From assembly GCA_002049455.2 (NCBI GenBank), contig KV918779.1:372001-436000 (forward strand): a stretch of DNA of 64,000 nucleotides. The letters are read 5' to 3'. Under the pieces are notes generated by a model. It was not told the DNA's origin. It did not search any database and saw nothing but the letters and a program-made list of their open reading frames with translations. Made by a program: the position numbers and the translations under genes. The DNA is from Porphyra umbilicalis (Eukaryota; Rhodophyta; Bangiophyceae; Bangiales; Bangiaceae). Shown piece by piece: positions 1,953-42,509 of the stretch (positions within the stretch are counted from its first letter, which is position 1; every line of letters begins with the position of its first letter).

Positions 1953-2094
1953 GCCTTTTATTCCCTACGGGGCCCGAGACCAGTCTATCGTAAGATAGAT
2001 GGCGCCCACCCCCCTTTAGGGGGGGGCGACAACGGGCGACACAACAAGCAAAGAGGGGACACAAGAAACCCTGGGTCACCCTAGGGTGACCAAG
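1953..2094. promoter_or_regulatory. Gap between convergent pol and antisense ORF (A)
   Basis: 142 bp separate the pol stop from the stop of the opposing antisense ORF. It contains an 18-bp perfect palindrome at 2074-2091 (GGTCACCCTAGGGTGACC), an inverted pair around CTATC/GATAG near 1985-1998 and a CCCCCCTTTAGGGGGG stem. Elements B and D have gaps of nearly the same length (139 and 138 bp). The start of the gap, with a C/T run before CCCTACGGGGCCC, is shared with B. Inference: a shared 3' end or bidirectional termination region. Confidence 0.45.
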
Positions 2095-4105: not shown

Positions 4106-4458
4106 CCCGCCTCTAGAGGCAGGGACCGGGAAGATAAGGATGGCCCCCCCTAGGGTGGGGTCCACGCAAGACGCGGGGCGCGGGGAGAACCCGGTAGCGC
4201 CCGGCAGGGTCGTCCGCCCGGTGGCGACACGGGTGCCGACCCAGAGGGTCGAAGCTCCAGTCACCGCTGGCGGTGACTGCCTTATGGGACTGGCCTGAGG
4301 GTTCCCCGGCTCAGTGAACCCGTCGGTCCCCCGCCGTATGGCGCCCAGGAGCGAGCCCCCAGGGGCACGCTGTCAGAGAGCCACAGGACAGGGTTTCCCC
4401 CTGACCTAGGGAGGGGGTGGCGAGACACCGCCCCCGGTCCCGCGAGACGCGGGCCCTG

Positions 4459-4470
4459 AGGTGGGGGATA
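4459..4470 (+). promoter_or_regulatory. Polypurine tract, element A
   Basis: AGGTGGGGGATA directly precedes the LTR start TGTGGGGG. The same tract precedes the 3' LTR of element B. It is the expected plus-strand DNA primer site. Confidence 0.75.
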
Positions 4471-5080
4471 TGTGGGGGAAACCCCCTGACAGGGGAGACA
4501 CGACCCCCCGGCATGAGCCGGGGACGGGTCGTGAACAGTCACGCAACACCCCCCTAGGGGGGTAGCGTGGGACAACCCCCTTGGGGGGGTGTCCAGGGAG
4601 CCCCAGGGCCACACATGAAACGACCCCTCTAGAGGGGCGTGAGGCGTGGAGCACCCGATCGGGCCCCCCTGGGGGGGTCTGGCACACGCAAGGGAGGCAC
4701 ACGTCATCCCGAATCCGGGCCCTCTGGGGGGACCGGGAAGCTTGAGGAAGCTTCCGCAATCCGAGCGTAAGCCGGACCGAGATATGATCTCGACCAGGGA
4801 TAAAATCCCACCGGAATTCTATCCGGGAAAATTGAAAAATCTTGGGATAAGTCCCGAGGTATTGGTTTTGGATAAATCCTGAAATCTAGGAAGTCTTAGT
4901 GACTTTCCTGCTTCCGCCCGAGACGGGCGCGGGTCCCCTTCCAGTGGAAGGGCTGTCAGGGATGCTGGGCAGGGGTCACTAGAGGCCCGGGCCTGAGACC
5001 GTGGCCCGTTGGGTACCGGTCCCCCCATGGTAGCGCCAGGGGGTCGGGATTGTGCACGTCCTGCGTCTTGTTTCTGAGGG

Positions 5081-5088
5081 TATATGAG
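5081..5088 (+). promoter_or_regulatory. TATA-like box in LTR A
   Basis: TATATGAG, conserved at the same place in the 3' LTR of element B (GGTATATGAG) and altered to GGTTTATGAG in the 5' LTR of B. Confidence 0.5.
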
Positions 5089-5118
5089 AGTATGCTTTGG
5101 GGTCATCGTGCGTGTTCG

Positions 5119-5124
5119 AATAAA
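5119..5124 (+). terminator. Polyadenylation signal AATAAA in LTR A
   Basis: AATAAA lies about 35 bp after the TATA-like box and is conserved in both LTRs of element B. Confidence 0.55.
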
Positions 5125-5280
5125 TCATCGTTGCGTTTGCGTTGCTTCCGTCGTTTTTGTGCGCTTCGCGCCCAGTGATCCCGGCGTTCGCGTTGTGATT
5201 CTGGCGTAGCGATCCGCACCCTGTGCTGGGTTTTCTGACGGGGTTATACCCCGTTGGCTTTGAGGGCAGGATCCACTACA

Positions 5281-6489
5281 CGACGGAGGGGCCATGTCCA
5301 GGTGGTATAGGCCGCTCTTCCGCATTCCGCACGCAGCGACCTTGTCGCTAATCTTGATGATGGACCTACCGCGCTTGAACGCCACATCCGCACCGCGCTC
5401 CTCCATCATACCGACCGACATCAGGTTGAAGCCCATTGTAGGCACATGGAGCACATTCTCCAACTTGACCTTGCGCGTCTTGCCGTGAACGATGACATTG
5501 AGGACGACGGCTCCGACGCCCGCCGTGGCCACGGACCCCTTGTCACCCATTATGGCGCTCCGGCCCGTGGTCGTCTTGTAGTCGTCGAAGCACGCACGCA
5601 TCCAGCACATGTGTGCAGCCGCCGCAGAGTCAATCAGCCACGACTTGGAAGTGTCGCCGCTGTCGCCCGCGTTGCCGACCAGGCAGATGGCGTCATCGCT
5701 GTCTCTATCGTCGTCAGCCGCAATTGCGGCAACCTTGTCCTTGTTCTTGTTCCTGGCCGTAAGCACGGGGCAATCGCGAGAGATGTGCCCAATCTTGTGG
5801 CAGTAGTAGCACTCGATCTTGGAGAGGTCGCCACGGCGGCCTTCCGCACAGTAGTTGGCTCCGACCAGTGCCATGGCACCAATGCGCTTGAGCACCGGCG
5901 ACTTGTCCTCTTGACGTCGCTCCTCCTGAAGCAAGCGGCTCTTAACAGAGTCGAGGCTTAGCTCGTCCTCGCCCTTGGCATCAAGGGCCACCAGTAAGTT
6001 CTCATACTTAGACGTCAGCCCGTTAAGAACGCTCATGGCAACGTCCATCTCCGTCACCTAGCCGCCCATGGCCTTGCGGTTCTCGCCGAGGTTGCGCACG
6101 CGGTTGATGCAGCCCAGCATGCCCTCGCCGACGTTCATCGCGGCGGTGTAGAACTCGCGTCGCGCCCTCATCTTGTTTATCACGCTCTTGCGCTGGAAGA
6201 CACCTTGCAGCGTCGACCACATTTCCGCCGTCGTCTTGCATCCCGACACGTGCTCGAGCTGCTCCGACCCTAGGCTGAGTCCGATGATGGCACTCGCCTT
6301 CGTGTCACGACGCTTCCAAACCGCAAACTCGCGGACCTCCTCGTGCGCCGTTTTGCCGTCTTCATCCAGCCTTTCGTCCAGGTCGCGCAGCGCCAGGACC
6401 ATCTTCATGCGCTGGCGCCACTCGCGGAAGTTCGTCTCCGTCAACTTGTCGATCTTGATGCCGCCCATGCCGGCCGCGCCACCGTCCAT
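5281..6489 (-). pseudogene. gag-pro: Copia gag and protease, stop codon inside, 3' truncated
   Basis: The ATG at 6489 begins MDGGAAGMGG and leads into a UBN2-type copia capsid (KLTETNFREWRQRM..., then AEMWSTLQGVFQ). An in-frame TAG at 6058-6060 falls in the middle of the capsid region (just before VTEMDVAMSVLNGL). Downstream are a zinc knuckle CYYCHKIGHISRDC (CX2CX4HX4C) and a protease segment WLIDSAAAAHM, where copia proteases normally read DSGAS. The Asp is kept but the following Gly is Ala. The frame then runs as YHLDMAPPS into the junction with element A. Non-functional as it stands. Confidence 0.85.
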
Positions 6490-15157: not shown

Positions 15158-15832
15158 TGTGGCGGTTGGGGCTGACCGGTGGCAGGGCGACACCTGGGGT
15201 GGCTGACGTGGCCCTACGGATCGGGCTCGGCGGGGGCTGGACGGCTGTCGTGGGCCCTACGTTGGCCCCGCGGCGCGGGCGGACCGTGTCCCGGATGGCG
15301 CCCTGTGATTGGCCGACGTGTGCCTGGATATCTTGGCCGCTGCTGGTGGCGGTTGTGGGATTTGATTTTTCTTTGCTTGTATTTCGCATTGTTTCGAGGG
15401 ACTTGCTTGTCGTATTTTGGGTGGCCTGCATTGGCCGGCCCCGATTGGTGGCCGAGCCACGGGCTCCCGAGGGTCGTTTGCTTCCACATATTTCCGCGGG
15501 TTGGGACCGAATAGCGGCCTCCCAGCGAAGGTGCCCCGTCTGCCCTCTAGGGGCGGGGGTGCTGGCGTGTGTTGGCCCGCTGTGGCCCCGCTAGGGGGCT
15601 GCCGTGGGGGCTCTTCAGGGGAGGTCTCGGCCTCCCCCTCGTGTTCACAGAAAAAACCAACCGTGCCTTGGGTCTCTTGCTCCCTCGGGTCTGTGCCGTA
15701 ATACCTGTGTCCCCCTCCCCGGGACGGGCGTGGATTGCACTTTTCCCTTGCCGGTTCCTTCTGGGCCTCCCTCATTTGGGCTCCAGGGGTTACTGATTTG
15801 CCTCTCCGGACAGAAGAGAGAAAACCGCTACA
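15158..15832 (+). repeat. 5' LTR of element C
   Basis: Begins TGTGGCGGTTGGGG and ends CGCTACA. It matches 24602-25276 along its full length with few substitutions, for example CTTCAGGGG versus CTTAAGGGG. Confidence 0.93.
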
Positions 15833-15836
15833 TTAA

Positions 15837-15854
15837 TGGTGGAGCAGCAGGGGA
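15837..15854 (+). promoter_or_regulatory. Primer binding site, element C
   Basis: TGGTGGAGCAGCAGGGGA, four bases after the LTR. Identical over 18 bases to the site of element D and similar to that of element B (TGGTGGATCTGCGGGGGA). TGG pairs with a tRNA CCA end; the rest predicts a tRNA whose acceptor 5' strand begins GGAGCAG. I could not assign the tRNA. Confidence 0.75.
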
Positions 15855-15984
15855 GGGACATACTTTTCTCCCGTATCGGGACGCCCCTCCTCTTTCTTTG
15901 GCCGAACCCCTCTTTTTTTCTGTCCGTTTGGGTTTTCTTGCCTCTGGTATCCTTCGGGGACCAGTCGAGTGCCGTGGGGCCAAC

Positions 15985-18065
15985 ATGCCGGACCCTCCCG
16001 CTGGTGGACGGGGTCGGGGTGCGCCCCCGGACGCGTCGCTTGTTACTCCTGCTGGCCGTGGAGGAGGGACAGGTATCCGCCGGACTGCTTCAGCCGGTGG
16101 CCAGACCGGGATACCCCTTCGCGTGACGCCCCCGCCGCCTCCTACTGGTGTTGAGGACCCGCCTGGCCGTGGCGGCTCCTCCCTGATGCCGACTGATCTA
16201 CGGTCTGTGCTGGACGCGTTCCGGTCGGGGATGCTGGCCGACGTTACGCGGGCCCTGAGCGAGTCCCCTCGACGGGGTGAGTCGGGCGGACAAGCGTCGG
16301 AACAAGGTGGGACAGGCAGGTCCCACACGAAGCGGCACCACTCACGGCGTCGCCGTCCTCCCTCTTCGTCTTCTTCGTCGGACGGGTCTTTCTCTGGATC
16401 GGCCCGTGGTCAAGGTGACAGGGGGGCTACTCCGCCACACGGGACCGATCTGACGGTCCCCCCTATTCCTGTTCTGCAATGTTCGGACGATCTGTTTTCG
16501 CGGGTGCTGGACTACAAAACCTACCGCCTACGGAACCGTCGGACGGGCTACGGGGCGGCCCAAGCGCGTAAGACGGGCCGAACCACCAAAAACATGAAGC
16601 ATTCCTTCGGCGGGTTTCCGCCGTTCTCGGGTAAGGACCCCCTCAAGGTCTTCTCCTGGCTCCGCAAGTTGGTCAAGGCATGTGATGACAACGACGTGTC
16701 GGAAGGGATGGCCCTCTACGCGATTCCCCACTTCCTGTCGGGCGACGCGGAATCCGCTACACCCGCGAACTGCCGGACTCGGGGACCGCGCTGGGCGTCT
16801 CGAGCATCACGTCCTACCCTGTGGCTGTGAACTGGTTCCTGCAGACCTACGCGGAACCGCACACGCTGGCTCTCGCGCAGGACACCTTCAGTCGGGCAAC
16901 CATCGAGCCCGACGAGACGATCGAGTCCTTCGCTGCCCGCTTGCGTGGCCTGTCGGACCGGTGTGGGAACATCCATACGGAAGGGACCATGAAGCAGCAA
17001 CTCATTCAAGGTCTGCCGGCCTACATTCGGACGGAGGCTGTTGTCTACAACACGCCGGCCTGTTCCTTCCAGCAGTTGGTGACCTACACGTCGGGCAGGC
17101 ACAAGGCGGCCGAGGAGGTCATGACGATGGCCCGTGATGGTCAGGGCCCCTCGACACCGTCTCCCTCCCGTGGTCCCCGCCGTCTCTCGGCGATCCCGCG
17201 GACGCGTCCGACCCGTTCGGATTTTCCGGCGCTGGCCCTCGGTGAGACGGAGCCCCCTGTTGCCTCTTCGCCGGCGGCCAACCCGGAGCCAAGCCAACCT
17301 GTTTGGGGCCGGCAGGACAACCTGCCTCGGTTCTTGACGGGACGCCCGGAAGACCCACGGCGCCCCCGCATCTGTTTCCTGTGCTGGACAGCGGGACACA
17401 TGTCCTACACGTGTCCGATCTTGACGGACCAACAGAAGGCGCTCGTGAACAAGGCCCGTGGGTCCTTCCTTCAAGCGACACGCAGTCGTGGAGCCGGACA
17501 GGACGAAAAGGGACGGGCCACGCGGACCTACAACCGTCAACTCCGCATCGCTATGGTCCAAGCCCTCTGTGACGGCATTGACAAGTCGAACGAGGAGGAC
17601 AAGCAAGACGGTTCGGATTTTCCGGCGCTGGCCCTCGGTGAGACGGAGCCCCCTGTTGCCTCTTCGCCGGCGGCCAACCCGGAGCCAAGCCAACCTGTTT
17701 GGGGCCGGCAGGACAACCTGCCTCGGTTCTTGACGGGACGCCCGGAAGACCCACGGCGCCCCCGCATCTGTTTCCTGTGCTGGACAGCGGGACACATGTC
17801 CTACACGTGTCCGATCTTGACGGACCAACAGAAGGCGCTCGTGAACAAGGCCCGTGGGTCCTTCCTTCAAGCGACACGCAGTCGTGGAGCCGGACAGGAC
17901 GAAAAGGGACGGGCCACGCGGACCTACAACCGTCAACTCCGCATCGCTATGGTCCAAGCCCTCTGTGACGGCATTGACAAGTCGAACGAGGAGGACAAGC
18001 AAGACGGGGACCTTGGGCCCAAGCCGGGAACCGAGCCGGACAAGTCTGGCTCGGGGAACAGTTAG
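15985..18065 (+). pseudogene. gag: Gag of element C, frameshifted, with duplicated zinc knuckle
   Basis: The ATG at 15985 (MPDPPAGGRG) starts a Pro/Gly/Ser-rich N-terminus, then a capsid region (HSFGGFPPFSGKDPLKVFSWLRKLVKACDD) matching those of B and D. Around 16745-16757 the frame changes by one base: LSGDAES is followed in another frame by RYTRELPDSG...AVNWFLQ. The second part runs to TAG at 18065. It holds two identical 132-residue segments, each with a knuckle CFLCWTAGHMSYTC (CX2CX4HX4C), from a tandem duplication. Role: virus-like particle formation and RNA packaging (family knowledge). The pol frame overlaps its end in the -1 phase. Confidence 0.88.
17215..18006 (+). repeat. 396-bp exact tandem duplication in gag (C)
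   Basis: 17215-17610 and 17611-18006 appear identical. 396 bp is 132 codons, so the frame is kept and the zinc knuckle is present twice. Confidence 0.95.
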
Positions 18066-21000
18066 CGGGGGGCGGGCAACTGTCCGACCCCCCGTTGTGG
18101 GCTAGTCCATGCGCGGAACCATCCTCGACTTGCGTACCGAAGTTGCTGACGAGACCGGCGGGACAAGCCCCTAGGCGGCGCGGCCTCGCTGGTCCCTGTG
18201 CGTTGAAGGGAACCCTGCTCGTGTTGCGGAAACGAAACTTTGTGGTCTCGGCGGCCCTGCGTTTGTCGTCGGACCATCCTGTGCGAGAGACCCCATGTGT
18301 GTTGGACACCGGGGCGGGACCAAGTGTCGTACGGGAGGATGTCCTCCCCTCGGGCTGGCAACAGCGGGCCCTGAGGGCCCCTCGGTCGACCCACGTGTGT
18401 GATGCGTCCGGCCAACTCCTGAAGGTTCGGGCCCAAGTGGAGTTGTCTGTCTTTGTGGACGGCGCCGCCATGCCGTTCCAGTTCTTGGTGGTCAAGGCCC
18501 TCTCGGTCCCTGTCATCCTGGGCATGGACTTCCAGAAGGAGCACGTCAAGGCCATCTATCCGGGCTGCGAGACAGTCTCCTGGAACCACGGCGGCTGTAC
18601 AAAGGCGGAGAACGCGTGGGACGGCAAGAAGAAGGAGCCCAACTCGGTGAAGGGCAACCCGACCCGTCGGGATGGCGGGACCATCGACTTGCGACAGGGC
18701 GTGACGGTGGCCCCGTTCACAATCCAAGCGGTCTCCGTGGTTTGCGGGACCGCGGGGAAATGTCGACTCATCAAGCGACCCGAAAAGCTCGCCGAGAAGG
18801 GACTTCGCCTGCACAATGCCCTTGCCAACCTGAAGCCCCGACGGGAATTCATTCTCCACCTGACCAACATCTCGGAAAAGCCGGTCAACTTACCGAAGGG
18901 CTACGCGATCGGCCTGGCGGAGCCCTATGCGGGCCCAACGTACGACATCAAGGAGGACAACTTGCCCGCTGATGTGGGGGCGGACCCCCTCTGTGTTGCT
19001 GGGCCGACGGAAGATCAACCTCGTCTGGAAGCGCCGTTGGCCGCGGCCGAAGCGCAGGGCCTGAAAACCAGCGAGCCACTACAAGATCGGGCCCAGCCGG
19101 ATCAAGAACCGTCGGAATCGGAACCATGCCCACGGGTAGCCTACGAGCTGATCCCGCCAGATTTACATCCCGCGGTACGGCAACTGATGGATCGCTACAA
19201 GCACCTATGGAGTGGCCAGTTGGGCCGGATTGATGTAACACCCCACAGGATCGCCCTCCACCCCGGGACTCGGCCCATTAGGTCCCAACCGTACCGGACG
19301 GGCTTCCATCACCGACGTCTCCTGGCGGAGCAAGTGGCGAAGCAACTCAAGATGGGGGTCATCGAGCCGTCGCAGTCCGAATGGTCCTTTCCGGTCGTGA
19401 TGGTGCCCACGCCGGACGGGTCCCCTCGGTTCTGCGTGGACTACCGCCGCCTGAACGACGTGACGGTCAAGGATACGTACCCCCTGCCCCGCATGGACGA
19501 TTGCATCGACTTCCTGGGCGAGGCGTCTGTCTTCTCCATGCTGGACTGTAACTCCGGCTACTGGCAGATTCCGGTGGCCGTCGAGGACCAAGACAAGACG
19601 ACCTTCACGTGCCACGATGGAACCTACAAGTACATCCGTCTCCCTTTCGGTTTGACGAACACGCCGGCCACCTTCCAGCGGGCTATCGACATGGTCCTGT
19701 CGGGCGTCAAGTGGAAGACCTGCCTGGTTTATCTGGACGACGTGATTGTCTTCTCCCGGACGGTCGAGGAGCACATCACCCACCTGGACGAGGTCTTTGG
19801 TCTGTTGTTCCGCGCTGGGGTCTCCCTCAAGGCGTCCAAGTGCTTCCTGTTCCACGAAGAGGTCGAATACCTGGGGCACATCGTGGGACGCGGACACATC
19901 CGGGTGAACGAGAAGAACCTGGTGGGGCTCCGTCACGCCGAGCCGCCCCGGACGAAGAAGGACCTGCGGAGCTTTCTCGGTATGTGCAACGTGTACCGCC
20001 GGTTTATGAAGGACTACGCGCAAGTGGCCCGACCCCTCCCGGCCCTGACTAGTCCTAAGGTGTCGGACCCGCTTCCGCCGTTCTCGCGGGACCAGCGGGA
20101 GGCCTTTGAGGAACTCAAGAGGCGGCTCACCAACACGCCGATCCTGGCGCTCCCGCGGGCGAACGGGGCCTACGTGGTGGACACAGACGCAAGCGATTAC
20201 CAAGTGGGTTGCGTCCTGACGCAAGAACAGCCGGACAAAACCTTCAAGCCGATCGGGTATTGGAGTCGCCCGATCAAGGGGGCCGAGAGGAACTACAGCA
20301 CGACGGAGAAGGAGTGCCTGGCCGTCGTTTGGGCCCTCTTCATGTTGCAGCCTTATGTCCAAGGGACGCGGTTCGTCGTCCGGACGGACCATTCTGCCCT
20401 CCGATGGATGCTCCATATGGACGGGGCTCACGGACGCCGGGCCCGCTGGCGGCTACGGTTGGCAGAGTTTGACTATCTGGTGGAAACCCGTGCGAAAGCC
20501 GCCCATCACGCAGCGGACACGATGCCCCGGCTTGCGACACCCTCGGTGGACACAAGACCGATCCCGGAGGAGATTCCCTGCCTCGCCCTGGCCAACTCCT
20601 CGCGGGCGTGGACCACCCCGTCGTACCAGGACAGACGGGACTATCCCCCGATCACGGTGGCCCGTCTGGTCAAGGCCCAAGCGCAGGACAACCGGTGCCA
20701 TGAGCTACGACAAGAGATGGACCGGAATGCCCAATCCCGGTTCTCCGGAAACGAGCAGGGCTTGCTGGTCCGTCGCGCACCACTGGACCGGGCGACGCAG
20801 GTGTACGTCCCCAAGGCCCTACGGACGGAGATCCTCACCCTCGAACACGCGCCGGCCCATGCGGGACACCCGGGTGCCAACAAGATGTACGTATCCATGC
20901 GGCGCTTCTTTTATTGGGAGTCCATGGTGGCCGACGTGTACGACTACGTGGCACACTGTGGGACCTGTGCCAAGGGGCGCGTGGGCAGCCGCAGACGGAC

Positions 21001-22150
21001 CAACCCTTTGCGGCTCTTTCCCCCGAAGGAACCGCTGGCCGCCGTATGCCTCGATCTATTGGTACCACTTCCCAAGACGAGGGCGGGCAACCGGTATCTA
21101 CTCGTGATGGTGGACCGCTTCTCCAAGTTGACCCGCGTGGCGGCCCTCTCGCGGGAGGATGCAGAAGCCGTGGCGTCGGCGTTCTGCGACACCTGAGTGG
21201 CGTCCTACGGGCCCCCGGACACCCTTCTGACGGACAACGGGCCCCAATTGACATCCACACTCTTCCAGGGGGTCTGCCGGCTTATGGGAATAACCAACCT
21301 GTACTCCACGACCTACCATCCGCAGACGCAAGGACAAGTCGAGCGGTACAACCGAACCATCGTGGCCCAACTCAAGGCGTACGTGGAGGACCACCAGGAC
21401 ACGTGGGACGAGCTTGTCTCTGTCCTGACGCTGGCCTATAACTCCCGGCCACAACAGAGCACCGGGGTAGCCCCGCTTGAGTTCGTCGTCCCCGAGCGGG
21501 TGCGGACGTTTGCCCTCGAGCGCCTTCCCAAGGAGCCGTACCCGCAGACAACACCGAAGACGGCCCGCGAGGCAAGGGAGCAACAAGAAGGGCACTTGCG
21601 GAACCTCATCACGCAGGTCCGAGCCGCCCTCGCCACGGCCCAACGTCGGTACAAGCGTAACTTCGACAAGCGTGTGCGGCCGGTCAACAAGGCCCTCAAG
21701 ATCGGGGATTGGGTGTTTATGGCCGCCCATGACACGAACCGACGCAAGTTGGACCACAAGGTTGTCGGCCCCTTTGAGATTGTCCGCATGGACGGTCACA
21801 CCGACACGGTTCTCGTGGACGGGCTGCCGGACACGGTGAGCAGCGACCACGTGACGTGGGCGCCTCCGCCGACGGGACAAGTGCCAAACGTGGACGGGAC
21901 GGAGGACCCGGAAGCCGTAGTCCCGGACGGGTATGGACCCGATGGTCCCGCGTTCGTCTGGGACCGTTTCCTTGACCATCTGGTGGACGAGGAGGGAAGC
22001 CTGTGGCTGCAGGTCCGCTGGTGGGGCTATGGGCCCGAGGAGGACACCTGGGAACGCGCGCTTAAGTTCGATCCCCGCAAGGTCCGCCAGTATTGCCGAC
22101 GCAAGCGTCTCCCGGACCCGACCGGACTGGCGGCCTTCCTGAGTTGGTGA
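18062..22150 (+). pseudogene. pol: Pol polyprotein of element C, one stop in integrase
   Basis: The frame lies -1 relative to gag, is open upstream of the gag stop, and has no ATG near its beginning, as expected for entry by -1 ribosomal frameshifting. Domains in order: aspartic protease (LDTGAG near 18305), reverse transcriptase with YLDD at 19730, RNase H (DTDAS near 20180), integrase zinc region (HAPAHAGHPG..CGTCAKGR), integrase core (Asp in CLDLLVPL, Asp in LTDNGPQ, Glu in GQVERYN), and a chromodomain-like end (VRWWGYGPEEDTW). TGA at 21194-21196 replaces a Trp conserved in A, B and D, between the first and second catalytic Asp. The rest of the frame is open, so the defect is a single base. 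Confidence 0.92.
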
Positions 22151-22591: not shown

Positions 22592-24211
22592 TCACCACCA
22601 AGAAGGGGGCCCCGACCGGTACCGCTGCTGGGGCCCGCCTTGTCCCTCCTCCCCGTCGTCCCCCCTCGCACGAACCTGTCCACGCGCAGACGGGTCTCCC
22701 GTGTTCGCTCGGCGGGAGTACCCGGCCTCCGCCGTGTCCACCTCCCGAAGGACCACCTCGCGAAGTGCATCACGACCAAAGCGGTTAAGGAGCTCGGCGG
22801 CCCCATGAGTACTCATCCCCGCCTGCTCACTCGTCCACAGACGGACTGACTCCCCCTGACGGACCAACGTGTGAAGGAGCGCCGCCAACAAGGGGCCCAT
22901 GTGCAACCGGTCAACCGCCCGCTGGTCCACGCCCGAGAAAGGAACCAACACGTCACGAAGGGCCGGCGGGGGTGCGTGCCACAAGGCGTCCAACGTGTGG
23001 TCCTGGATGTCCCGATGGGTCGGCAAGCTCACCGTGACGAGGCGCGGTCCCGTCGCGGCGGGGGGGAGGCCCTCGTGGATCATCCCCTGCGAGACCGACG
23101 GTACGCTCGACCCCGCTTGCTCCGCCCCACTTGGCCCTCGGTCCGGCGGGCGCGAGGACACAACCGCCTGGTCCCACCCGGTCGCTTCCTGGGCCAGGAC
23201 CCGACGCTCGAGGATGTCCGCCGAGTACGGCAAAACCAAGGGGTGTAGGTCCTCATCCACCTTGGCCTCCGTCACGGACCCGTCGGTCGTCACGACAACG
23301 GACACCCAGGAAGAGCGGTCCCGTCGCTCGGAGGACGCGCGGCTGAGGCGGTGCGTCAAGGTTGGACCGACGGGTAGTATGTCTAGCAAGGCCAACAAGG
23401 CACCCAACTCCTCGACAGCCCGGTCCTCCGTTCCCTCCGGCCCTTGACAGATGGCCCGCAAGCCAACACGGAGGATCCAGGTGCGGAGGGCCTTCGGGTA
23501 CAACCACAAGATGCCCCGCGTCCGGAAGCAGTCCATCAAGTAGGCGCCCGCCATGACGACCCACTCGCTACGGAGGACCTTGCCGGCAAAGTCGTCGCGG
23601 CTCAACAAGGCCGCCGACATGTAGGCTTGGACCGGCGGGAGCTCAACCATCGCCCCGTACGGGACCTCCACCAAGGTCCACCACGGCGGGACGCGCGGGT
23701 AGTACTGGGCCCGACGGGGTTGCGGACAACTCGTGAACTCGGCCTGATGCCAACCAACCAGGAAGGGACACGACGCGGTCCGGCAGTTGCGGTTCGCCGT
23801 GATGGTCGTGCGGGGCGGATAGTCCAACGGAAGGCCAAGGTACGGCGGGGACATCACGACGAACTCCCACGCCGGCGCTGTGTGGGACAACACGGCCAGC
23901 GCCGCCCGCCGTTGGTGGTAGGTCCGCATGTAGCCAACCTCCGACGGACGACGGACCACCGTGATGGAGTCCGACCGGTCGTCCGCCGCGGGGACCAACG
24001 CGTCCGGCAAGAGCCGCATCTGCTTGAGGAAGGCGTTCCCGGCGGTCCACCCATCGAGGTCCCGGAAGAGGGCGTGGGCCCGCGTGCTTCGCGTCCACTC
24101 TCGCGCCTCCTCCCGCTCCCACGCCGCCGCCCAGACCGCCACGTCGGACACGTCGGGGATCTCCCCGACGACGTTGATGTACCGCTGGTCCCCGCCGAGG
24201 TCCGCCGCCAT
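22592..24211 (-). CDS. Antisense ORF of element C (aORF family), intact
   Basis: Encodes 540 residues from ATG at 24211 (MAADLGGDQR) without a break. Family not recognised. The central block has RRAQYYPRVPPWWTLVEVPYG, then a Trp- and hydrophobic-rich stretch, then RTRGILWLYPKALR and a Leu-rich LLALLDI run. These match, in order and spacing, the antisense products of A, B and D. A second region around LLAALLHTLVRQGESV corresponds to LIMALSRTLVRLRNEV of A. The Gly/Ser repeat tail of A and B is absent; the C-terminus is Gly/Arg-rich. The frame is open further upstream to the LTR, but this Met is the first giving a family-like start. It is the only undamaged member in the window and so the best reference for the family. 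Confidence 0.75.
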   Translation of the reverse strand: MAADLGGDQRYINVVGEIPDVSDVAVWAAAWEREEAREWTRSTRAHALFRDLDGWTAGNAFLKQMRLLPDALVPAADDRSDSITVVRRPSEVGYMRTYHQRRAALAVLSHTAPAWEFVVMSPPYLGLPLDYPPRTTITANRNCRTASCPFLVGWHQAEFTSCPQPRRAQYYPRVPPWWTLVEVPYGAMVELPPVQAYMSAALLSRDDFAGKVLRSEWVVMAGAYLMDCFRTRGILWLYPKALRTWILRVGLRAICQGPEGTEDRAVEELGALLALLDILPVGPTLTHRLSRASSERRDRSSWVSVVVTTDGSVTEAKVDEDLHPLVLPYSADILERRVLAQEATGWDQAVVSSRPPDRGPSGAEQAGSSVPSVSQGMIHEGLPPAATGPRLVTVSLPTHRDIQDHTLDALWHAPPPALRDVLVPFSGVDQRAVDRLHMGPLLAALLHTLVRQGESVRLWTSEQAGMSTHGAAELLNRFGRDALREVVLREVDTAEAGYSRRANTGDPSARGQVRARGDDGEEGQGGPQQRYRSGPPSWW

Positions 24212-24590: not shown

Positions 24591-24601
24591 TGTGGGGGCC
24601 G
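24591..24601 (+). promoter_or_regulatory. Probable polypurine tract, element C
   Basis: TGTGGGGGCCG directly before the LTR start TGTGGCGG. It is less pure than the tracts of A, B and D. Confidence 0.5.
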
Positions 24602-25276
24602 TGTGGCGGTTGGGGCTGACCGGTGGCAGGGCGACACCTGGGGTGGCTGACGTGGCCCTACGGATCGGGCTCGGCGGGGGCTGGACGGCTGTCGTGGGCC
24701 CTACGCTGGCCCCGCGGCGCGGGCGGACCGTGTCCCGGATGGCGCCCTGTGATTGGCCGACGTGTGCCTGGATATCTTGGCCGCTGCTGGTGGCGGTTGT
24801 GGGATTTGATTTTTCTTTGCTTGTATTTCGCATTGTTTCGAGGGACTTGCTTGTCGTATTTTGGGTGGCCTGCATTGGCCGGCCCCGATTGGTGGCCGAG
24901 CCACGGGCTCCCGAGGGTCGTTTGCTTCCACATATTTCCGCGGGTTGGGACCGAATAGCGGCCTCCCAGCGAAGGCGCCCCGTCTGCCCTCTAGGGGCGG
25001 GGGTGCTGGCGTGTGTTGGCCCGCTGTGGCCCCGCTAGGGGGCTGCCGTGGGGGCTCTTAAGGGGAGGTCTCGGCCTCCCCCTCGTGTCCACAGAAAAAA
25101 CCAACCGTGCCTTGGGTCTCTTGCTCCCTCGGGTCTGTGCCGTAATACTTTTGTCCCCCTCCCCGGGACGGGCGTGGATTGCACTTTTCCCTTGCCGGTT
25201 CCTTCTGGGCCTCCCTCATTTGGGCTCCAGGGGTTACTGACTTGCCTCTCCGGACAGAAGAGAGAAAACCTCTACA
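24602..25276 (+). repeat. 3' LTR of element C
   Basis: Begins TGTGGCGGTTGGGG and ends CTCTACA; copy of 15158-15832. Followed by the duplication ACACC. Confidence 0.93.
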
Positions 25277-32079: not shown

Positions 32080-32722
32080 TGTGGCAACACAGCACGCCCA
32101 CCCCCAGCCCGGGGGGCGACCGTGCCGTGTCCCCGGTAGTCCCGAGTAAGGACCCCGGAAGAAAACACCGGAACCGCCAACACACAACTGGCGTGGCCGG
32201 GTACACCCCGACGAGCACGACACAGCACTGTTGGAGCCGAATGTTTACTTGGTGGGCGAAGGGCGTCGGGGCCAGCACCGCAGACCTCCCCCCTTATATA
32301 CCCTCGGGGACCCCGCCCAGAACACGCAAAAAGGGGTCCCAACATAGACACGCACCCCGACCCACCAGGGCCACCCACTCCCACTGGGAGTGGAAGGTAG
32401 TAAACCACGCATCGCTCCCGCGCAAACGAAGCCCATTAAGTAAGCAAGGCGTAAATACCAAAACATTAGCGCAGGATGAAAACCCAGGACAATTAGGAAG
32501 ATGTAACGGTTACCCGATTTGGGTGTATACTTCCGAACTTCGGTACTAAAGCAAGCCGTCCGTTAAGCCGTTATCTGGGACACTTAGTTAGTGACCGTCT
32601 TCCTTACTCTCCCAATGACATGGCCTGGTAAGTGACCCTGGGCCTGTGTGGTCCTCTGCGATCTGGGCCTCTAGTTGAGACGGATCGCGACAGGTGACCG
32701 CGGTAGGTGGCATACTACCACA
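32080..32722 (-). repeat. 3' LTR of element D
   Basis: On the plus strand it starts TGTGGCAACACAGC and ends TACTACCACA, giving short inverted ends TGTGG/CCACA. It copies 41867-42509 with one mismatch. The minus strand carries TATATAAG at 32293-32300. Confidence 0.95.
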
Positions 32723-33495: not shown

Positions 33496-35719
33496 ATGGC
33501 TTCCGAGGAGTCGTCGAAGGTCCGGGGCCCCCCCCCGGGGGTGCCCCTCTTGGAGGAGGAGGAGGTGGAGCCGGCGATGGACGTGTCGCCGGACCCCCCC
33601 CCGCGCGGCGCACTCCTCGGCGGCGGCGTCGGGGCAACCAAGTGGGTCATCCCCGGTCGCGTCGGCGGCACTCTCGGCCGTCGGCCCGGGTCACGGACAA
33701 GGGCCGGCGGCGTCGGGGTTACTTCTTCCGGCGCGCCCCGGGGAGGGCGCCCGTGCCGCACGGGCGGCGCTCGTGGCGGCTCAAGTCGAGGCAGCCAGCG
33801 CGAGGACTACTCCTCCCGCGCCGCAGGGCTGGTGGACGCCACCGCCCCACCCGACTGGGATGAAGATGGGTCACCTCCGGGACGTCTACTTGGCGATCCC
33901 GGACGCACGTCGTTTGGACGCCTGGAAGCGCTGGTGCGCCCAGTTCCCCACTCAAGTGGAGTTCCCTCTGGGGTTCAAGGCATGCCTCCCGGCTCTACTC
34001 GAGGCGGGGGATGAGAAGGGCGTCATGACGGCCCACCGCTTGTTGACGGCCGCCCCGGAGGACAACGAAATCGACGCCCAGAGTGCGGCCGTCTCTTGGG
34101 CGTGGGCCACGCTATCCCCGCCTTACATGGCGGAGGCGGACCCACACGTCAACCACGCTGCGGCGCGCCAAGAGTGGCTGGCGCGTGACGAGCACGCCTA
34201 CCTCTTGTCGGCGGTGCAGGTGGAGTTCACCCAGGTGCACCGGGACATGCGCCCGCGCTACTATGCGGCGCTGCCCCCGAGGTGGTCGGATGTGGAGGTG
34301 CCTTTTGGCTTCCCGGCGTGTATGCCGCGATACGTGGCGTACTTTGCCACGGCCGTCCAACCCGGTGATCACTTTCACCGTGCGTTTGCCATCCTCGCTA
34401 CCAACTGGGTGATCGGGGTGGCGTCGACGTGGTACGCCGTCGTGCGTAACAGGGGCCGACTATGGCACCTTTCGGCCAGCCTGGTGGCGGCCATTCGGTC
34501 GTTGGGCCCGGCCGAATTCGCGGCCGGGCGTGACGGGGACGCAGCTTTTCTGCTGGCGTCCATGCTTGCCCTCCACGATCAAGCTGATTGGGGGGCGGCG
34601 GTCAGTCACCTCCGTCGTAAGCGGATGGCGCCGGGGAAGGAGCCCGATACTCGGGGCTTCGTCCATTGTACTAAGGGGCTCGAGGACGGCGAACTCCGCC
34701 TCTGCGAGGGCCTTGGCCGGGGCGACTACCCCTACGCCGACGGGTGTGGGCCGACGACGTCGCCTCCCCCAAGTGGGTGGGACGCGGTGGACAAGACGAC
34801 CCCCGCCTTCGATGGTGGTCGGGGCTCAAAGGACGCCCGTACTTCGGGTGTCCGTCGAGGCGGCCGAGGTGCGCCGGGCCGTCCCCGCGGCGGCTATCAC
34901 GATCTGGACGCCCCGAGCTCTGGTGTGGCGGGGCCGTCCGGCGGAGGTTCTTCCCGGGCCTACTCGGCCCGTGAGTCCCCGTGGTTTGGCGCGGCGCCGA
35001 GTCGGCTTCGCGATCCTCCTTCGTTCGCCATGGTGGAACCTTTCCCCCTACGCCACTTGCGCAGGGGACTGAGCCGGGAGCCCCTGCCGCAAGGTTTCGC
35101 GCGGGGGCTCCAGGAGATGCTTCCCGCCGTGGCGCCCGTTATCTGGGACGCGGCCGGGGAAGTCACCCTGGTCGCCTTGGCTGACACGGTCGGGTGGTTG
35201 AGCCGCCGTCTCGCCTCCTTTGCCGCCCAAGTCGGGTCGGCTGACGAGTCTTCCGCGGCGCACCGTCTACTGGAGGAGACCGCTCTCCCCGCGGTCGGGG
35301 CCCACTTGGTCGCCCGACTGGAGGAGCACCGAGCCCACTTGGCCTGGTCGCAAGGTGGCGGATATGGCCCCACGGCGCCTCCGGCTGGGCACTCATCCAC
35401 GCCGCAGTGGGGCGTCGGGACTGGGGCGTCTTATGGTCGGTATGGGTCCGCTGACCAGCGCGGGGATTACTCCTCCCCGCCGGCGCCGGGGTACACGCAA
35501 CTGCGGTCTGCCCACGGTACGGGTTCTTCCGTGACGGGATCCACGCCGACGCATGCACAACTGATGCAGGCGTGGGAGGCGCAGCGGTCTACCGTCCCTG
35601 GTGTCCCGTCCGCGCCGGACACTTTCCGTCGCGGGAGTTGGGGTGGACCGAGTGGGGCCCATTGGGATGCGTCGCCGCGTAGGGACGGACAGGACCACCC
35701 CGGTGGCATGGAGCCGTAA
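33496..35719 (+). pseudogene. Antisense ORF of element D (aORF family), frameshift at C-run
   Basis: The ATG at 33496 (MASEESSKVR) resembles the MASS start in element A. The frame changes by one base at a run of C near 33594-33602, after MDVSPDPP. The following frame is open for about 700 codons to 35719. The conserved core is RYYAALPPRWSDVEVPFG, then VRNRGRLWHLSASLVAAIRSLG, a Leu-rich stretch, and FVHCTKGLEDGELRLCEGLG, paralleling FRCAKALDDEG..REGLG in A. A second block includes LVALADTVGWLSRRL. The tail is Gly/Tyr/Ser-rich. The homopolymer shift may be real or a sequencing error; with it ignored the product would be about 740 residues. Function unknown. Confidence 0.7.
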
Positions 35720-35857: not shown

Positions 35858-38800
35858 TCACTCCCCCCGGTCGGGTGTCTGCCGCAGCGCGATGTTATGC
35901 CGACTGCAGTATCGCCGGACCTTCTCACTCGGAAGGTCCTCGATATATTCCCAGGTGTCCTCTCGGGGACCATACCCAAACCAGCGCACGCGGAGCATGA
36001 GTCGCCCCTTCTCGTCATACCCTTGTCCGACAAACTGGTCGAACACCGCCTCCATCGTTTTAGTTGACGATGAAGGCAGGGCGGGCACTTGCCACGCCGC
36101 GAGAGCCCGCTCCCAGACTGGGTCGCCCTCGTGTGGCTCCGGTGCCCGTGTGGCATGATTGCCATTAATCGTACGGATGCCATCGTCACTCTCGATGGTC
36201 AGCAGCCGCCCATCGGTCTTTAGTATCTGATAGGGGCCGCGGGTTCTGAAGATGAGTTTTCCTCCTTGGTTCTCGTGTGACTTCACGAAGACCCCGTCTC
36301 CAACTCGGAGCGCCTGGCGGCGGCTCTTGACTCGTTTGTCAAAGTGCCGCTTGTATCGGGCTTGTGCCTTGTCCATTGACTCTTGGACAAGCGGTATCAT
36401 CTCGTCCAGTCGTTTGAGAAAGCTGGCCTTCGCCTGACTTGGCGTGAGGGTGGACTCGCCCTCTGCCGTCCCCTGTGTCAGCCGCTCGACGGCTATCGGG
36501 TTAAGCCGTCGGGGGCACACAAAGGAGAACGGTGCCTCTCCCGTGCTACTATGCACTTGGGAGTTGTATGCGGTCACTAGTAGTGACACGTACCTCGCCC
36601 AGGATGAGACGTGCTCACTGACATAGTGTCGTAACTGGCGCACTAATGTCTTGTTGAAGCGTTCCACCTGCCCGTTCGTCTGAGGGTGGTAGGGTATAGC
36701 AAAGTTCGTACTTATCCCCAGCATTTGTAGGACTCCTTGATAAAGTACTGAGGCAAATTGTGGCCCGTTATCGGAAAGTGTGGAATCAGGTATGCCGTAA
36801 CTGGCAATCCACACGTCCAAGAAGGAACTCAGTACATCCAGAGCCGTGACGTCTTTCAGAGGGACGACACGAGTCAACTTAGTGAATCGATCACATATGA
36901 CCAACAAATATTCATACTCCTCGGGGGTGCGTGGCAAAGGGCCAAGTAGGTCCAAGGCAACAGCCGCGAAGGGCTCTTTCGCGGGAAACAGACGCATGGA
37001 GGCAGTACTCCGCGTCTCCATGAGCCTATTCTTGGCACAGGTGGGGCATGCCGCCACCCAACCGAACACGTCGGCGACCAGGGAAGGCCAGTAATACCTT
37101 CGCCGGAGGGTCTGATACATCCGAGTGGCACCCGGGTGTGCGCCCAGCGGGGAGGAGTGTTCCCGCTGGAGGATTTCCTTCGTGAGGGACTGGGGGACAA
37201 CCACTTGCTGTACCCCTTGTTGATGGCCCTGACGGCAGAGTATGCCGTCTCCGTTCGCATAGAAACGGGTGGCCTCGGTGGTGTCCAGATCTTTCTGGAC
37301 CTTCTGGCAGAAGTTATCTGCCTGTTGGGCCGTGGCCAACTCGGCCAACGGGATGGGTAGCGCCTGGGAATTCTCCGGGGGTCGGGGGTCTAAGACCGCC
37401 CCCGACCTCGTCGTCACCCCGACTATGGGTATCTCTTCCGGGATGGGGTTCTCGTCCTTCCCCTCAGTCGGGATGCGGGACATCGCGTCAGCCACTGCAT
37501 GACGCCGGCCAGGCTTGTACTCCACGTCATAGTCAAACTAGGCTAGACGTACCCGCCATCTGTTAAGGCGGTTGTTCGTACATGTCGTGGTGGTCAGTAC
37601 CCACCGCAGTGCCTGGTGATCACACCGTATAAGGAAGTGCGTCCCTTCAATGTAGGGACGTAACATAGAGACGGCCCAGACCACTCCGAGGCCCTCTATC
37701 TCTGTAACGGTATAGTTCTTCTCAGCCGGGGTGAGTCCCTTACTGAAGTAACCAACTGGGTGATACTCGCCCGATGGTTGTTCTTGGAGCAGGCTGCAAC
37801 CGAGTTGGTCGTAGCTGGTATCCACGTCGATGATGTACTTGCCTTCCTTCCGCGGGAGGGCCAATATAGGCGGGTTGCAGAGCAGTTCTCGCAACTTATC
37901 GAACGCCTCTTGCTCCTCTTGAGTGGGAGGGGCAAGCCGCTTTGGCAACGCCGTCCTCGCCAAGCGGTTCAGCGGCTTCGCGTACTTCGCGAAGCTGTCG
38001 GTGAAGCGCCGATATACATTACACATCCCCAAGAAGCTCCTCAGTTGGGTTTGCGTCTTGGGGAACTGGGCCTTCCTGATGGCTTTCAGGTTCTTCTCAT
38101 TGACGCTGATACGTCCTGGCCGGACTACATGGCCAAGGTACTCCACCTCGTTACTGAAGAGGTGGCACTTTTTCGCTTTAAGCGTGACGCCTGCGTTGCC
38201 CAGTAGGGTAAACACCTTGTCCGAGTGGGACAGGTGTGTCTCCGCGTCATGGGAGAAGACAATTATGTCGTCGAGGTAGACCAGGACGTACTGCCACTTG
38301 ACACCTGCGAGTAGCATGTCAATGGCGCGCTGGAAAGTTGCCGGCGCATTGCATAGGCCGAAAGGGAGACGTTTGCACTGGAACGTCCCCGAGTGGCAGA
38401 TAAACGTTGTGAGATGGCGATCCTCCAGTGCTACGGGGATCTGCCAGTAGCCCGCGTTACAGTCTAACGTGGAGAAGAAGATTGCCTCACCAAGTGAGTC
38501 GAGGCAGTCGTCCATGCGGGGGAGGGGGTATGCATCCCTCACCGTCCGTTCGTTCAGTTGACGATAGTCGATGCAAAACCGAGAAGAGCCATCCGGTTTC
38601 GGTACCAGGACGATGGGGCTGGCCCACTCACTTGAGCTGGGCTCAATGACATCCAGTTGTGTCATCTTGTCGACCTGCTCCCGTATTTTCTGACGAGAGC
38701 GGGGCCCCATCCGATAGGGGTTCAAGCGTACTGGCTTGGCCCCGGGTTTGAGCTTGATGCGACGCTCCGTGGCTTTGATGAGGCCAAGGGAGCCGTCCCA

Positions 38801-39837
38801 CAACTTGTGGTGCTTCTCGATGAGCTCATCGAGGCGTTCCTTGAAACTTTCAGGCACGTTCTCCCTGTGGATATGCGGACGGTTGTCGCTGTCCTCTGGT
38901 GCTTGGGTCGGTGTACTATCCGTGTCCAAGGCCTGCCACTGCTCCGTAGTCACGGCAGTCACGTTTCCCTCGTACCGATCAATGAACCCGAGGTTCATGC
39001 CCGCTGGGAAGCGCTTAGTTGTCTTCCCAGTGTGGATTATTTCCAACCACCAGGTCTCCCCTGCAGTACAGGTCATCGTGCCTGGGGCGACATGTAACTG
39101 GTGTTTATCAAACACCCGATGTAGGGGAAAAACCATTCCGTTCCCCTGGAAGGCCGTGCGCACTTGCACGTACCCTCGAGACCTTGGTTGGATTACTGTC
39201 TTCTGCGCCAGCCGGACTAAGGCGGAGGCAGAAGAGGGGCAGGCACAATACATGTCTGCCTTCTGGGTTGTCGCAGCAATAGTCCTGCCGCGACGTAAGA
39301 TGGGGACACGCCCACCATCGTGCATCCGGATGTAGTTGTCCGGACCACAGATCGCCGGAACATGGCGATCCGTGTAGTCGGTCCCCAGAATCATGGGGAC
39401 GGACATGCCGGGTACGACCCCGATAGTGATCTCAGTCGTAAATGATCCAATGCGGACGTGAAGCGCAAGGGTGCCCTTGATGGGAAGTAGCCCACCATTT
39501 ATGTCAAACATGGAGGCGGATGACTTGTCCGCCGCCTTGACCGTCACATCCCTGGGGAGGAGGTCTTCCCGGATGAGGGAGACGCCAGACCCGGTGTCTA
39601 TTATGACCCGCGTGGCCAACTCATGCCCTTTCGTAAGCCATACTCGGGCTGCCACTTGATAGTTGCTGCCTGTTAGGATGGCAACGACCTTACTGCGGTC
39701 GACGCCCTTCGGGAGACGCATATCCCGAGGGCGTACCCCCTTGGGGCGGGTGAGGATCCACTTGACTTTCGTGGGCGACTCACCCGTAGCCCCAGATGGG
39801 ACCACCGGGGGCCGCGGGGTTTCCTTACCCCCAGTGG
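35858..39837 (-). pseudogene. pol: Pol polyprotein of element D, one stop in RNase H
   Basis: Frame -1 relative to gag, open across the gag stop and without an early ATG. In order: protease IIDTGSGVS; reverse transcriptase with YLDDIIVFS; RNase H in which the usual TDAS is DVDTS; TAG at 37538-37540 (RVRLA-stop-FDY) where A, B and C have Glu; integrase zinc region (REHSSPLGAHPG..CPTCAKNR); core with Asp in LDLLGPL, Asp in LSDNGPQ and Glu in GQVERFN; and a chromodomain-like end (VRWFGYGPREDTW). Apart from the one stop the frame is complete, about 1325 codons. Confidence 0.93.
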
Positions 39838-41717
39838 TTAGGCGTTTCCCGCATCGGAGTGGGATGCGGGTGCCGGCTCCTCCTCTGAGTGTGAAGGTTC
39901 CCCCTCCTCAGTGGTGGAGTCGCTTTCGATCACTGCCTCCGCGGCTTGTGTGGCAGCGACGACGGGCGGCGCCTGCTGGCGCGGCGCCTGAGTAGGGCGC
40001 CGTGTCTGGGGCCGCGCCCAAGGGTTACCCATCGCCAGACGGGCCCTGAGACGTGCATCCAACTTGGGACACGTCTCGGCCCAATGTCCCTTTTGGCCAC
40101 ACTGCCAACAGGGCTGGGTGCCCGGTCCATCACCGGAGTGGGCAGTCGTCGGTGTAGTGGCCGCGACTGCCGATCCCTCACCCTCGTCCCGCGCATAGTA
40201 GGCACGGGTACGCGGCGGGGGGCGAGGCACAAGGGTCTGCCTCGCCTGGCGCCGAAGGCTCTTTGCCGCGGCTGCGTTACGGGCTTCCTCTGCCCGCTCT
40301 TTCTGCTGCTCCGAGCGGAGCCAGCGAAACTCGTCACCCTTAGTCTGGGCAAGGCGAGCCAGCTCGGCCAGAGTCATGGCCGGCGTGTTCCGCTCACGCA
40401 CAGTGGCGCGTACCGCCCGGTGAACTCCCTCCACGAAGCGCCCCTTGAGGGCGCCCGACTCATGGAGAGAGCCGCACTCGGTGTTCAGTCGTCGCAGGCG
40501 TTCGGCGAAGGACAACTCGTCCTCGCCGTCCTCCTGAGACGCTCGATTAAACTCTTCCACTCGAAGAGCGATGGATGCCTCATCGGCATGCATCCGGATC
40601 ATCCAGTTGACCAGTTACAAATAGGAGGTCACCTCCCCAGGGTTACCCCCACGCCGAGTCGGCATGACGGCCATCACCTCTGAGCGGAGTGGCTCGCGAG
40701 TGAAGTCCTGGAGGACGTAGAAGGCCTCGCCTTCCGAGACGAAACTGTCGTCGCACGCTTTTGCGAATTTACGCAAGAACTGGAAAACCTTGTGGGATGG
40801 GGTCCCATCCCACTCGGATCGGGACCCGAAGGAGTGTGAGATATCTTTCTTGAGTCGACCCATGTTATGGGCCTGCTCGCGCGTGTAGAGAGTTGACTTA
40901 TTCTCCAACGCGTATGTCTCACAGTCAAACATGTCCTTATATTGGGGATTGTTAACTGTGATCTTGGCCGGTACAACTCGTACCGATGGGGCAAGCCTGC
41001 CCCGGATGGGTGCATAGTCCGCGCCCGCACTACGAGGTTGTCCACGCGAGGAGGACGCGTGGGTGCGCCGCGGCGTCCAGGAGGAGTCCTCCTGGGTGCC
41101 GGGTGTACGGATGTAGGGGGAATCCCCCCCTGAATATTCTCCATCTGAGGATTACGACGTATACACCAGTCGACAACGGGGGGAAGAGTAGCCCCCCCGA
41201 CGCGGTCGGGCCTTGGGAACTGGAACAGAAGCCACGGCGGGCGACCCCTGTAGGGATCGCGCCACCTCCGTCCGTACCACGTGGGTGATGGCGTCCACCA
41301 GCTCTGGACCTATCACCCCCTCAGAGCCCCGGGGAGCACGACTAGAGCTCCCACCCGGCGGCTCCCGTGGCAAAGTGGGCACAGTCCAACCAACTCGAGT
41401 CGGGGACGGCCTCTCCGTCCGCGACACACGGGCCGGCCGACTTCCGCCGAAGAGAATGCCAGCACCCGGATGGAGACTCTCGGTGTTACTGCGAACCGAG
41501 GGTGCCCCAGCCGGGGGGTGCGAACGCCACTAGGCCCAACGGGCAAGGCCTGGGGGCGGAATAAAGACCCACGCCAAGGGTCACCCGCATCCCCGTCGCT
41601 CTGACTCAGTGGGTCGCCGCTCGTCGGCGGATCGACACCCGGGGGGAGGTCAACACCGCCCCCACCACTAGTCATTCCGGAGCGCCCGGGAGGGTTCCTA
41701 CGCCCACCCCTGTCCAT
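39838..41717 (-). pseudogene. gag: Gag of element D, two stop codons
   Basis: Probable start at 41717 (MDRGGRRNPP). A frame change is likely around 41430-41480, because the N-terminal and central parts are open in different frames. TAA at 41152-41154 interrupts the Ser-rich motif SSDGEYSGG that is intact in B. TAA at 40615-40617 follows SYL, where B has Glu. The capsid region (HSFGSRSEWDGTPSHKVFQFLRKF) and the knuckle CWQCGQKGHWAETC (CX2CX4HX4C) are well preserved. The end is acidic (EEGEPSHSEEEPAPASHSDAGNA). Confidence 0.87.
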
Positions 41718-41866: not shown

Positions 41867-42509
41867 TGTGGCAACACAGCACGCCCACCCCCAGCCCGGG
41901 GGGCGACCGTGCCGTGTCCCCGGTAGTCCCGAGTAAGGACCCCGGAAGAAAACACCGGAACCGCCAACACACAACTGGCGTGGCCGGGTACACCCCGACG
42001 AGCACGACACAGCACTGTTGGAGCCGAATGTTTACTTGGTGGGCGAAGGGCGTCGGGGCCAGCACCGCAGACCTCCCCCCTTATATACCCTCGGGGACCC
42101 CGCCCAGAACACGCAAAAAGCGGTCCCAACATAGACACGCACCCCGACCCACCAGGGCCACCCACTCCCACTGGGAGTGGAAGGTAGTAAACCACGCATC
42201 GCTCCCGCGCAAACGAAGCCCATTAAGTAAGCAAGGCGTAAATACCAAAACATTAGCGCAGGATGAAAACCCAGGACAATTAGGAAGATGTAACGGTTAC
42301 CCGATTTGGGTGTATACTTCCGAACTTCGGTACTAAAGCAAGCCGTCCGTTAAGCCGTTATCTGGGACACTTAGTTAGTGACCGTCTTCCTTACTCTCCC
42401 AATGACATGGCCTGGTAAGTGACCCTGGGCCTGTGTGGTCCTCTGCGATCTGGGCCTCTAGTTGAGACGGATCGCGACAGGTGACCGCGGTAGGTGGCAT
42501 ACTACCACA
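41867..42509 (-). repeat. 5' LTR of element D
   Basis: Copy of 32080-32722 with one mismatch. TATATAAG on the minus strand at 42080-42087 is a plausible TATA box for the genomic RNA. Confidence 0.95.
42080..42087 (-). promoter_or_regulatory. TATA box in 5' LTR of D
   Basis: TATATAAG on the minus strand, in a GC-rich context and oriented towards gag. Confidence 0.55.

Follow-up and report, generated by a model that had tools for sequence, protein, structure and literature searches.

The subject of this study is a 64,000-nucleotide stretch of the genome of the red alga Porphyra umbilicalis (contig KV918779.1, positions 372,001 to 436,000; hereafter the window), in which four Ty3/gypsy retrotransposons, here called A, B, C and D, each carry an additional gene between pol and the 3′ long terminal repeat (LTR), on the strand opposite to gag and pol. 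In element C this antisense open reading frame (aORF) is intact, lying between the end of the pol/chromodomain frame and the 3′ LTR (Table 1) within a stop-to-stop frame of 22592–24700, and its coordinates, 22592–24211 on the minus strand, are exactly those given by an earlier reading of the stretch made without database searches (the sequence-only reading). That reading also placed an ORF in D beginning at 33496; D does hold an intact relative, but its first ATGs are at 33860 and 33866. The genes of A and B, described there as ORFs as well, are homologous antisense genes that are both broken over several frames. Across the window, the gene is intact in D, whose LTRs are 99.84% identical, and in C (98.8%), and broken in B (95.0%). 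As detailed below, the aORF evolves as a protein gene under purifying selection in the antisense frame, and it marks one clade of Ty3/gypsy elements.

Coding status and conservation of the antisense gene

The window is GC-rich (52–74% per 2 kb; 64–68% is reported for Bangiales genomes, PMC7423979) and contains 146 stop-to-stop frames of at least 150 amino acids, so that open frames alone prove little. For that reason, intact copies of the gene were compared codon by codon. Across 14 pairs of intact copies, the ratio of nonsynonymous to synonymous divergence (dN/dS, or ω) was 0.07–0.79 in the aORF frame, with 13 of the 14 values at or below 0.58 and zero stops; synonymous divergence (dS) exceeded 1 in two pairs, whose ω values are rough. 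Four other frames of the same pairs gave ω of 0.72–4.76, and the sixth carries 10–23 stops per sequence, leaving the antisense frame as the only one both stop-free and constrained. In ten C- and A-type pairs, constraint on the aORF (ω 0.12–0.42) is similar to that on the integrase–chromodomain region of the same elements (0.11–0.48, with one integrase copy carrying a stop in four of the ten), and it is weaker in D2-type pairs. The dN/dS comparison between copies that the sequence-only reading had proposed thus came out below 1 in all pairs but one. More broadly, 30 of 64 fetched loci are stop-free over the matched stretch (L041, clipped at a contig end and carrying two stops, is counted as not stop-free), and copies within a subfamily share a common start and usually a common end.

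The four window genes belong to one homologous family, as the sequence-only reading had claimed with a significant HHalign alignment as its test. BLASTP within a small protein set joins all four products (A–D 3e-15, C–D 2.5e-14, A–C 1.4e-8; A and B are 70% identical over 256 amino acids), and hhalign of a C-type profile (14 proteins) against an A/D-type profile (8 proteins) gave a probability of 99.2% and an E-value of 6.7e-20 over 362 columns. The motif that had been read by eye agrees with the nearly invariant positions in an alignment of 43 aORF proteins, which in C numbering are P123, E158, P175, W177, W178, E182, V183, P184, G186, P192, W217, W236, P239, L269, L273, E320, L322 and P328; L275 is the sole invariant position. 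The sequence-only reading did not recognise the protein, and Pfam bears this out, with no aORF match at E≤0.001 among ten proteins that included six aORF frames, none for the C protein at E≤5, and only six scattered weak names for the 43 proteins at E≤5. Pattern searches returned six matches in a viral collection and eight in a prokaryote collection, none of which was confirmed by tblastn. Among the protein matches, Pyropia vietnamensis, itself a Bangiales red alga, was the sole species named, with three hypothetical proteins. One of these, MMPV_002403 (P0009), is a model in which unrelated N-terminal sequence (gag-like by eye) is joined to the antisense-gene product, and is possibly a gene-model fusion.

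AlphaFold predicts a helical core of ∼300 residues that a disordered linker connects to a C-terminal helix bundle, with a tail that is also disordered. Foldseek searches of the PDB with both models returned only E-values of at least 3 and probabilities of at most 0.13, and Foldseek against BFVD (C model) and VIA against the PDB gave nothing trustworthy; fold matches such as those to HBV core, apolipoprotein E and BAG1 were rejected as probable helix-bundle noise. The highest 19-residue hydropathy is 1.26–1.53 in five C- and D-type proteins and 1.65 and 2.02 in two A-type proteins, in which the maxima fall in a long predicted helix. A further candidate feature, a lysine desert in the aORF (0.4–1.3% lysine in eight window and genome copies and 1.1–1.8% in four relatives, against 3.1–6.0% in gag and pol of the window elements), was set aside. 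Lysine is almost as scarce in two transposase frames of the window that are unrelated to the gene (1.0% and 1.8%), so that GC content may explain the low value. The 1.0% frame, of 813 residues, contains a Plant_tran / DDE_Tnp_4 transposase domain and lies at 42462–44903.

Occurrence and descent within one clade of elements

The search of the genome covered an assembly of 83.8 Mb in 665 contigs, with match lists that hold the best-scoring candidates only. The aORF is present at no fewer than 226 merged places (90 D-type, 86 C-type and 50 A-type), many of them fragmentary; these are places rather than copies, because some copies are split over two. The merge drew on 60 of the 103 matches in one list (42 D-type matches were counted in another list and one 83-residue piece was omitted) and on 81 of 82 and 83 of 86 in two further lists. 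Orientation is uniform, the aORF being antisense to pol in every one of the 56 loci whose fetched DNA includes pol (64 examined, eight without a pol match). Among the best 125 of 1,248 candidate integrase–chromodomain matches of the clade, an aORF lies within 5 kb of 98 and is antisense in 97; the remaining match, 2.3 kb away from a D-type copy, may be a neighbour's. Among the best 150 of 679 H2C2 integrase candidates, 25 precede a clade integrase match, 22 of them with an aORF in reach, and only ten of the other 125 have one. Other gypsy lineages that are abundant in the genome therefore seem to be without the gene, judged from the match lists rather than from their downstream DNA.

The sequence-only reading took the pol genes of A/B, C and D to be clearly different lineages, and the gene to be either ancient in the group or repeatedly acquired. 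They are indeed distinct subfamilies, but sisters that are not very distant, with reverse transcriptase (RT) identities of 71% (B–D), 67% (B–C) and 59–60% (C–D) and integrase identities of 42–46% between types; the antisense gene is at 25–30%. The gene places A/B nearer D than C, as does RT. At the 43 loci kept from L001–L060, a set without A-type loci, gene and integrase distances are strongly correlated (Mantel r 0.95 for C and D types together, 0.85 within 24 C-type loci and 0.89 within 19 D-type loci), with none of 999 permutations reaching the observed r in any test. Because the gene tracks integrase in the C and D types and groups A/B with D just as RT does, repeated acquisition is disfavoured and the claim of an ancient origin in the clade stands; one old acquisition followed by vertical descent is the simplest reading.

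One comparison, of 14 of the 30 C-type loci, counts against purely vertical descent. Between groups C2a (L004, L005, L007, L009 and L016) and C2b (L010–L013, L018, L022, L025, L027 and L028), the 3′ end of pol is 86–97% alike, whereas the antisense-gene block, which begins shortly ahead of the start codon and runs almost to the end of pol (aORF-oriented positions 1351–3550 of L004), is only 56–88% alike. Inside the block, identity within each group is mostly 92–99%, the exceptions being three 100-base stretches of C2a beside pol (80–90%) and the first two stretches of C2b (74–84%). The LTR side is less clean, at 74–91% between the groups and 60–84% within C2b. In two C2a/C2b pairs, synonymous divergence is 0.54–0.55 in the gene and 0.21–0.22 in the integrase part. 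The block thus seems to have a history separate from that of pol, most likely through cassette exchange between elements, with fast local divergence as the alternative.

The carriers themselves have a recognisable architecture (Table 1). C and D show the Ty3/gypsy layout of paired LTRs, RT–RNase H–integrase order and 5-base target duplications (ACACC around C, CAGAG around D), and have TGGTGGAGCAGCAGGGG in common beside the 5′ LTR, likely a shared primer site. Element B has paired LTRs without a clear target duplication, and element A is truncated by the window edge. A scan of B, C and D found a Pfam Chromo match after integrase in each (24.7, 20.1 and 22.9 bits; E-values 2.3e-5, 6e-4 and 7.9e-5, respectively), all below the cut-off of 25.1 bits. 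A zinc knuckle in C gag, likewise below the Pfam cut-off, is seen twice in the sequence; an exact 396-base tandem duplication at 17215–18007 doubles it. Elsewhere in the window are a tandem array of ∼11 copies of a 235–236 base unit immediately ahead of element C (12202–14845), a frame with a hAT transposase C-terminal dimerisation region (10193–11716), and an RT frame of Ty1/copia type (RVT_2; 61247–63727).

Table 1. Features of the four elements, in window positions
Feature	Positions	Strand	Remarks
C aORF	22592..24211	-	ATG at 24211; 539 amino acids; intact; in-frame relatives, dN/dS
C 5′ LTR	15158..15832	+	98.8% identity with 24602-25276
C 3′ LTR	24602..25276	+	98.8% identity with 15158-15832
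C gag region	15833..18065	+	starts at LTR end; start codon unassigned; two frames
C pol (RT, RNase H, integrase, chromodomain)	17978..22150	+	in-frame stop 21194-21196
D aORF	33866..35719	+	intact; 617 amino acids (619 from ATG 33860)
D pol	35858..39907	-	RT/RNase H frame 37538-39907; integrase-chromodomain frame 35858-37537
D 3′ LTR	32080..32722	-	99.84% identity with 41867-42509
D 5′ LTR	41867..42509	-	LTR pair with 32080-32722
A antisense gene	2095..4105	-	broken; two frames, 2876-4372 and 2095-3165
A pol 3′ part	3..1975	+	78% DNA identity with B
A 3′ LTR	4416..5284	+	70% to B 3′ LTR
B antisense gene	56283..58415	-	broken; at least three frames, 56283-56894, 56931-58166, 58209-59186
B pol	52475..56143	+	RT frame 52475-53713; RNase H-integrase-chromodomain frame 54107-56143
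B 5′ LTR	49022..49806	+	95.0% identity with 58812-59595
B 3′ LTR	58812..59595	+	LTR pair with 49022-49806

Possible roles of the antisense protein

The explanation that we favour, at a probability of roughly 55%, is that the aORF is a real accessory gene that defines one group of chromodomain Ty3/gypsy elements in red algae (probably Bangiales), and whose antisense product would act in trans, probably as a regulator or an anti-silencing factor. An antisense promoter in or beside the 3′ LTR would drive its transcription, and the product would be a soluble protein with the predicted core, linker, helix bundle and tail. With less confidence, this protein would influence, in trans, how the element itself is expressed or the state of its chromatin. 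A regulator and a silencing suppressor were both suggested by the sequence-only reading, and both stay candidate roles. Such action would explain the spread of pol-intact copies without the gene, the presence of diverged gene versions on similar pol in two subfamilies, and the greater divergence of the gene than of RT and integrase.

Several observations weigh against this explanation. At the level of coding, the sixth frame, which shares the gene's wobble position, has ω of 0.19–0.76, slightly below that of the gene in 2 of 14 pairs; dN/dS values come from intact copies only, which biases them towards constraint; and in five D2-type pairs, which are close and whose values rest on few changes, ω is 0.40–1.40 in the aORF and 0.19–0.59 in the integrase part, constraint on the gene being weaker in four of the five. 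The AlphaFold models are middling (mean predicted local distance difference test scores of 66.5 and 61.8), the structure searches recognised no nucleic-acid-binding fold, and the seven proteins examined do not share a basic run resembling a nuclear signal. The step to a regulatory or anti-silencing role is a lead that we infer from position, from analogy with plant Retand and deltaretroviral genes, and from the pattern of loss and divergence. Finally, 27 of the best 125 integrase matches have no aORF among the matches listed.

Five of those 27 loci were read. Two of them (L066 and L068) hold a degenerate relic, and at the other three (L065, L069 and L070) no aORF was found by tblastn and pol is open over 1434, 1341 and 1341 amino acids, respectively. 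In subfamily C3, to which L066 and L068 are also assigned, the gene is cut near residue 212: the match ends at residues 212–217 in 19 places (L067 included; from one list of 82 matches), conserved Trp residues are replaced in the copies read, and pol frames are open at 1433–1434 amino acids in three copies (C133, C28 and C13). Because some pol-intact copies thus lack the gene or carry only relics, the aORF seems dispensable in cis, and single copies seem able to spread without it.

A bolder version of the trans-acting accessory gene, which we hold only tentatively and consider unlikely as a whole, would make it a control module whose versions are swapped among subfamilies independently of pol and decide which elements promote or curb one another, with antisense regulators recurring in the Ty3/gypsy elements of red algae and green plants.

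Two other roles are each somewhat less probable than that, and about equally doubtful. The protein could serve the structure or the packaging of the virus-like particle, as a second coat protein or an RNA-packaging protein supplied in trans, and the predicted domain order (helical core, linker, helix bundle, tail) would fit such a role; yet the elements already have a sense gag with a putative zinc knuckle, the Foldseek comparison with the PDB offers no support, and an antisense transcript would be hard to keep in step with gag amounts. It could also keep copy number in check by limiting how far its own element spreads. Ty1 p22 in yeast is a protein of this kind, and both the loss of the gene in spreading subfamilies, which fits an inhibitor shed by escape copies, and the diverged gene versions on similar pol agree with the idea. 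However, constraint like that on integrase is less expected of a pure self-inhibitor, and Pfam finds no similarity to gag.

The remaining alternatives fare worse. That the gene is a transduced host gene, carried along as cargo that does nothing for the element, is improbable: LTR elements are known to carry cargo genes (PMC11963269) and Pfam finds no similarity to other known element proteins, but the same gene occurs in every sublineage seen, co-diverges with integrase in the C and D types, is under integrase-like constraint in 10 of 15 pairs, and yielded no match identifiable as a host gene, the protein matches having been judged without genomic context. An envelope-like cargo, one of the roles suggested by the sequence-only reading, is very improbable, for although the gene sits where such a protein would be looked for, between pol and the 3′ LTR, it lies on the strand opposite to gag-pol, and hydropathy maxima of 1.26–2.02 in seven proteins reveal no clear membrane segment (no dedicated membrane predictor was used). 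Least probable of all is a shadow ORF, a GC-rich artefact over a true sense gene, which long overlapping sense frames in several copies might suggest (window 23387–24619; 676 amino acids in L004; one sense frame without stops across the gene in L004, L005 and L006) and which the frame-wise ω test contradicts, with 0.82–4.76 in two sense frames and 10–23 stops in the third against 0.07–0.79 and zero stops in the antisense frame, while distant relatives align as the antisense product.

Comparison with known systems

If the inference of trans action is right, the aORF product would resemble Ty1 p22 in being an element's own trans-acting protein. The two differ in origin, as p22 is a sense gag fragment and the red algal protein is antisense and without gag similarity in Pfam. 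Deltaretroviral antisense genes start from the 3′ LTR, and HBZ among them is a bZIP protein; the aORF has no bZIP domain in Pfam, and the likeness is one of layout only. HBZ and APH-2 are described as antisense to gag-pol and as nuclear or regulatory (PMC11963269).

Among plant elements, extra ORFs of Ogre, Retand and Athila are reported to encode the plant mobile domain, Transposase_28 and Athila ORF-1, respectively (PMC6317226). The Ogre ORF is comparable as a lineage-specific addition to a Ty3/gypsy element; its plant mobile domain (PF10536; PMC6317226) is not matched in the aORF, and neither it, Transposase_28 nor Athila ORF-1 had a Pfam match at E≤5 among the 43 aORF proteins. A search with the profile hidden Markov model PF04195 likewise gave zero matches in the genome at E≤10 and among the 43 proteins at E≤5. 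Antisense ORFs in red algal retrotransposons were not found among the literature matches listed, which have largely open-access coverage.

The closest parallel is with the antisense ORFs of plant Retand/Tat elements (also Grande and RIRE2), which, as described in PMC11963269, share with the aORF the site between pol and the 3′ LTR, the antisense orientation, presence in most copies of a lineage and a function without assignment. In all recent Retand clusters covered there, this region has antisense coding potential, and 97% encode Transposase_28, a domain apparently restricted to flowering plants (PMC11963269). The carriers seem to differ: the Retand/Tat elements are non-chromovirus elements of flowering plants (PMC11963269), whereas the red algal pol ends in a chromodomain-like stretch. 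The Chromo matches in B, C and D, all three below the Pfam cut-off, would speak against a non-chromovirus carrier.

Antisense genes at this site, without assigned function, are therefore already documented in flowering-plant Tat-type elements, and the red algal family adds a second one, unnamed in Pfam and without detectable similarity to those of plants, in which constraint is about as strong as that on integrase in 10 of 15 pairs. A second family suggests that some need of Ty3/gypsy elements can be met repeatedly by an antisense gene and, should the swapped control module prove true, an antisense regulator would be recurrent in Ty3/gypsy rather than a flowering-plant oddity. With its many intact copies, the red algal family offers an independent system for testing transcription, localisation and the effect on element RNA. 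As far as sequence comparison can tell, it is a new antisense gene family within a known element architecture, a positional analogue of the plant antisense genes.
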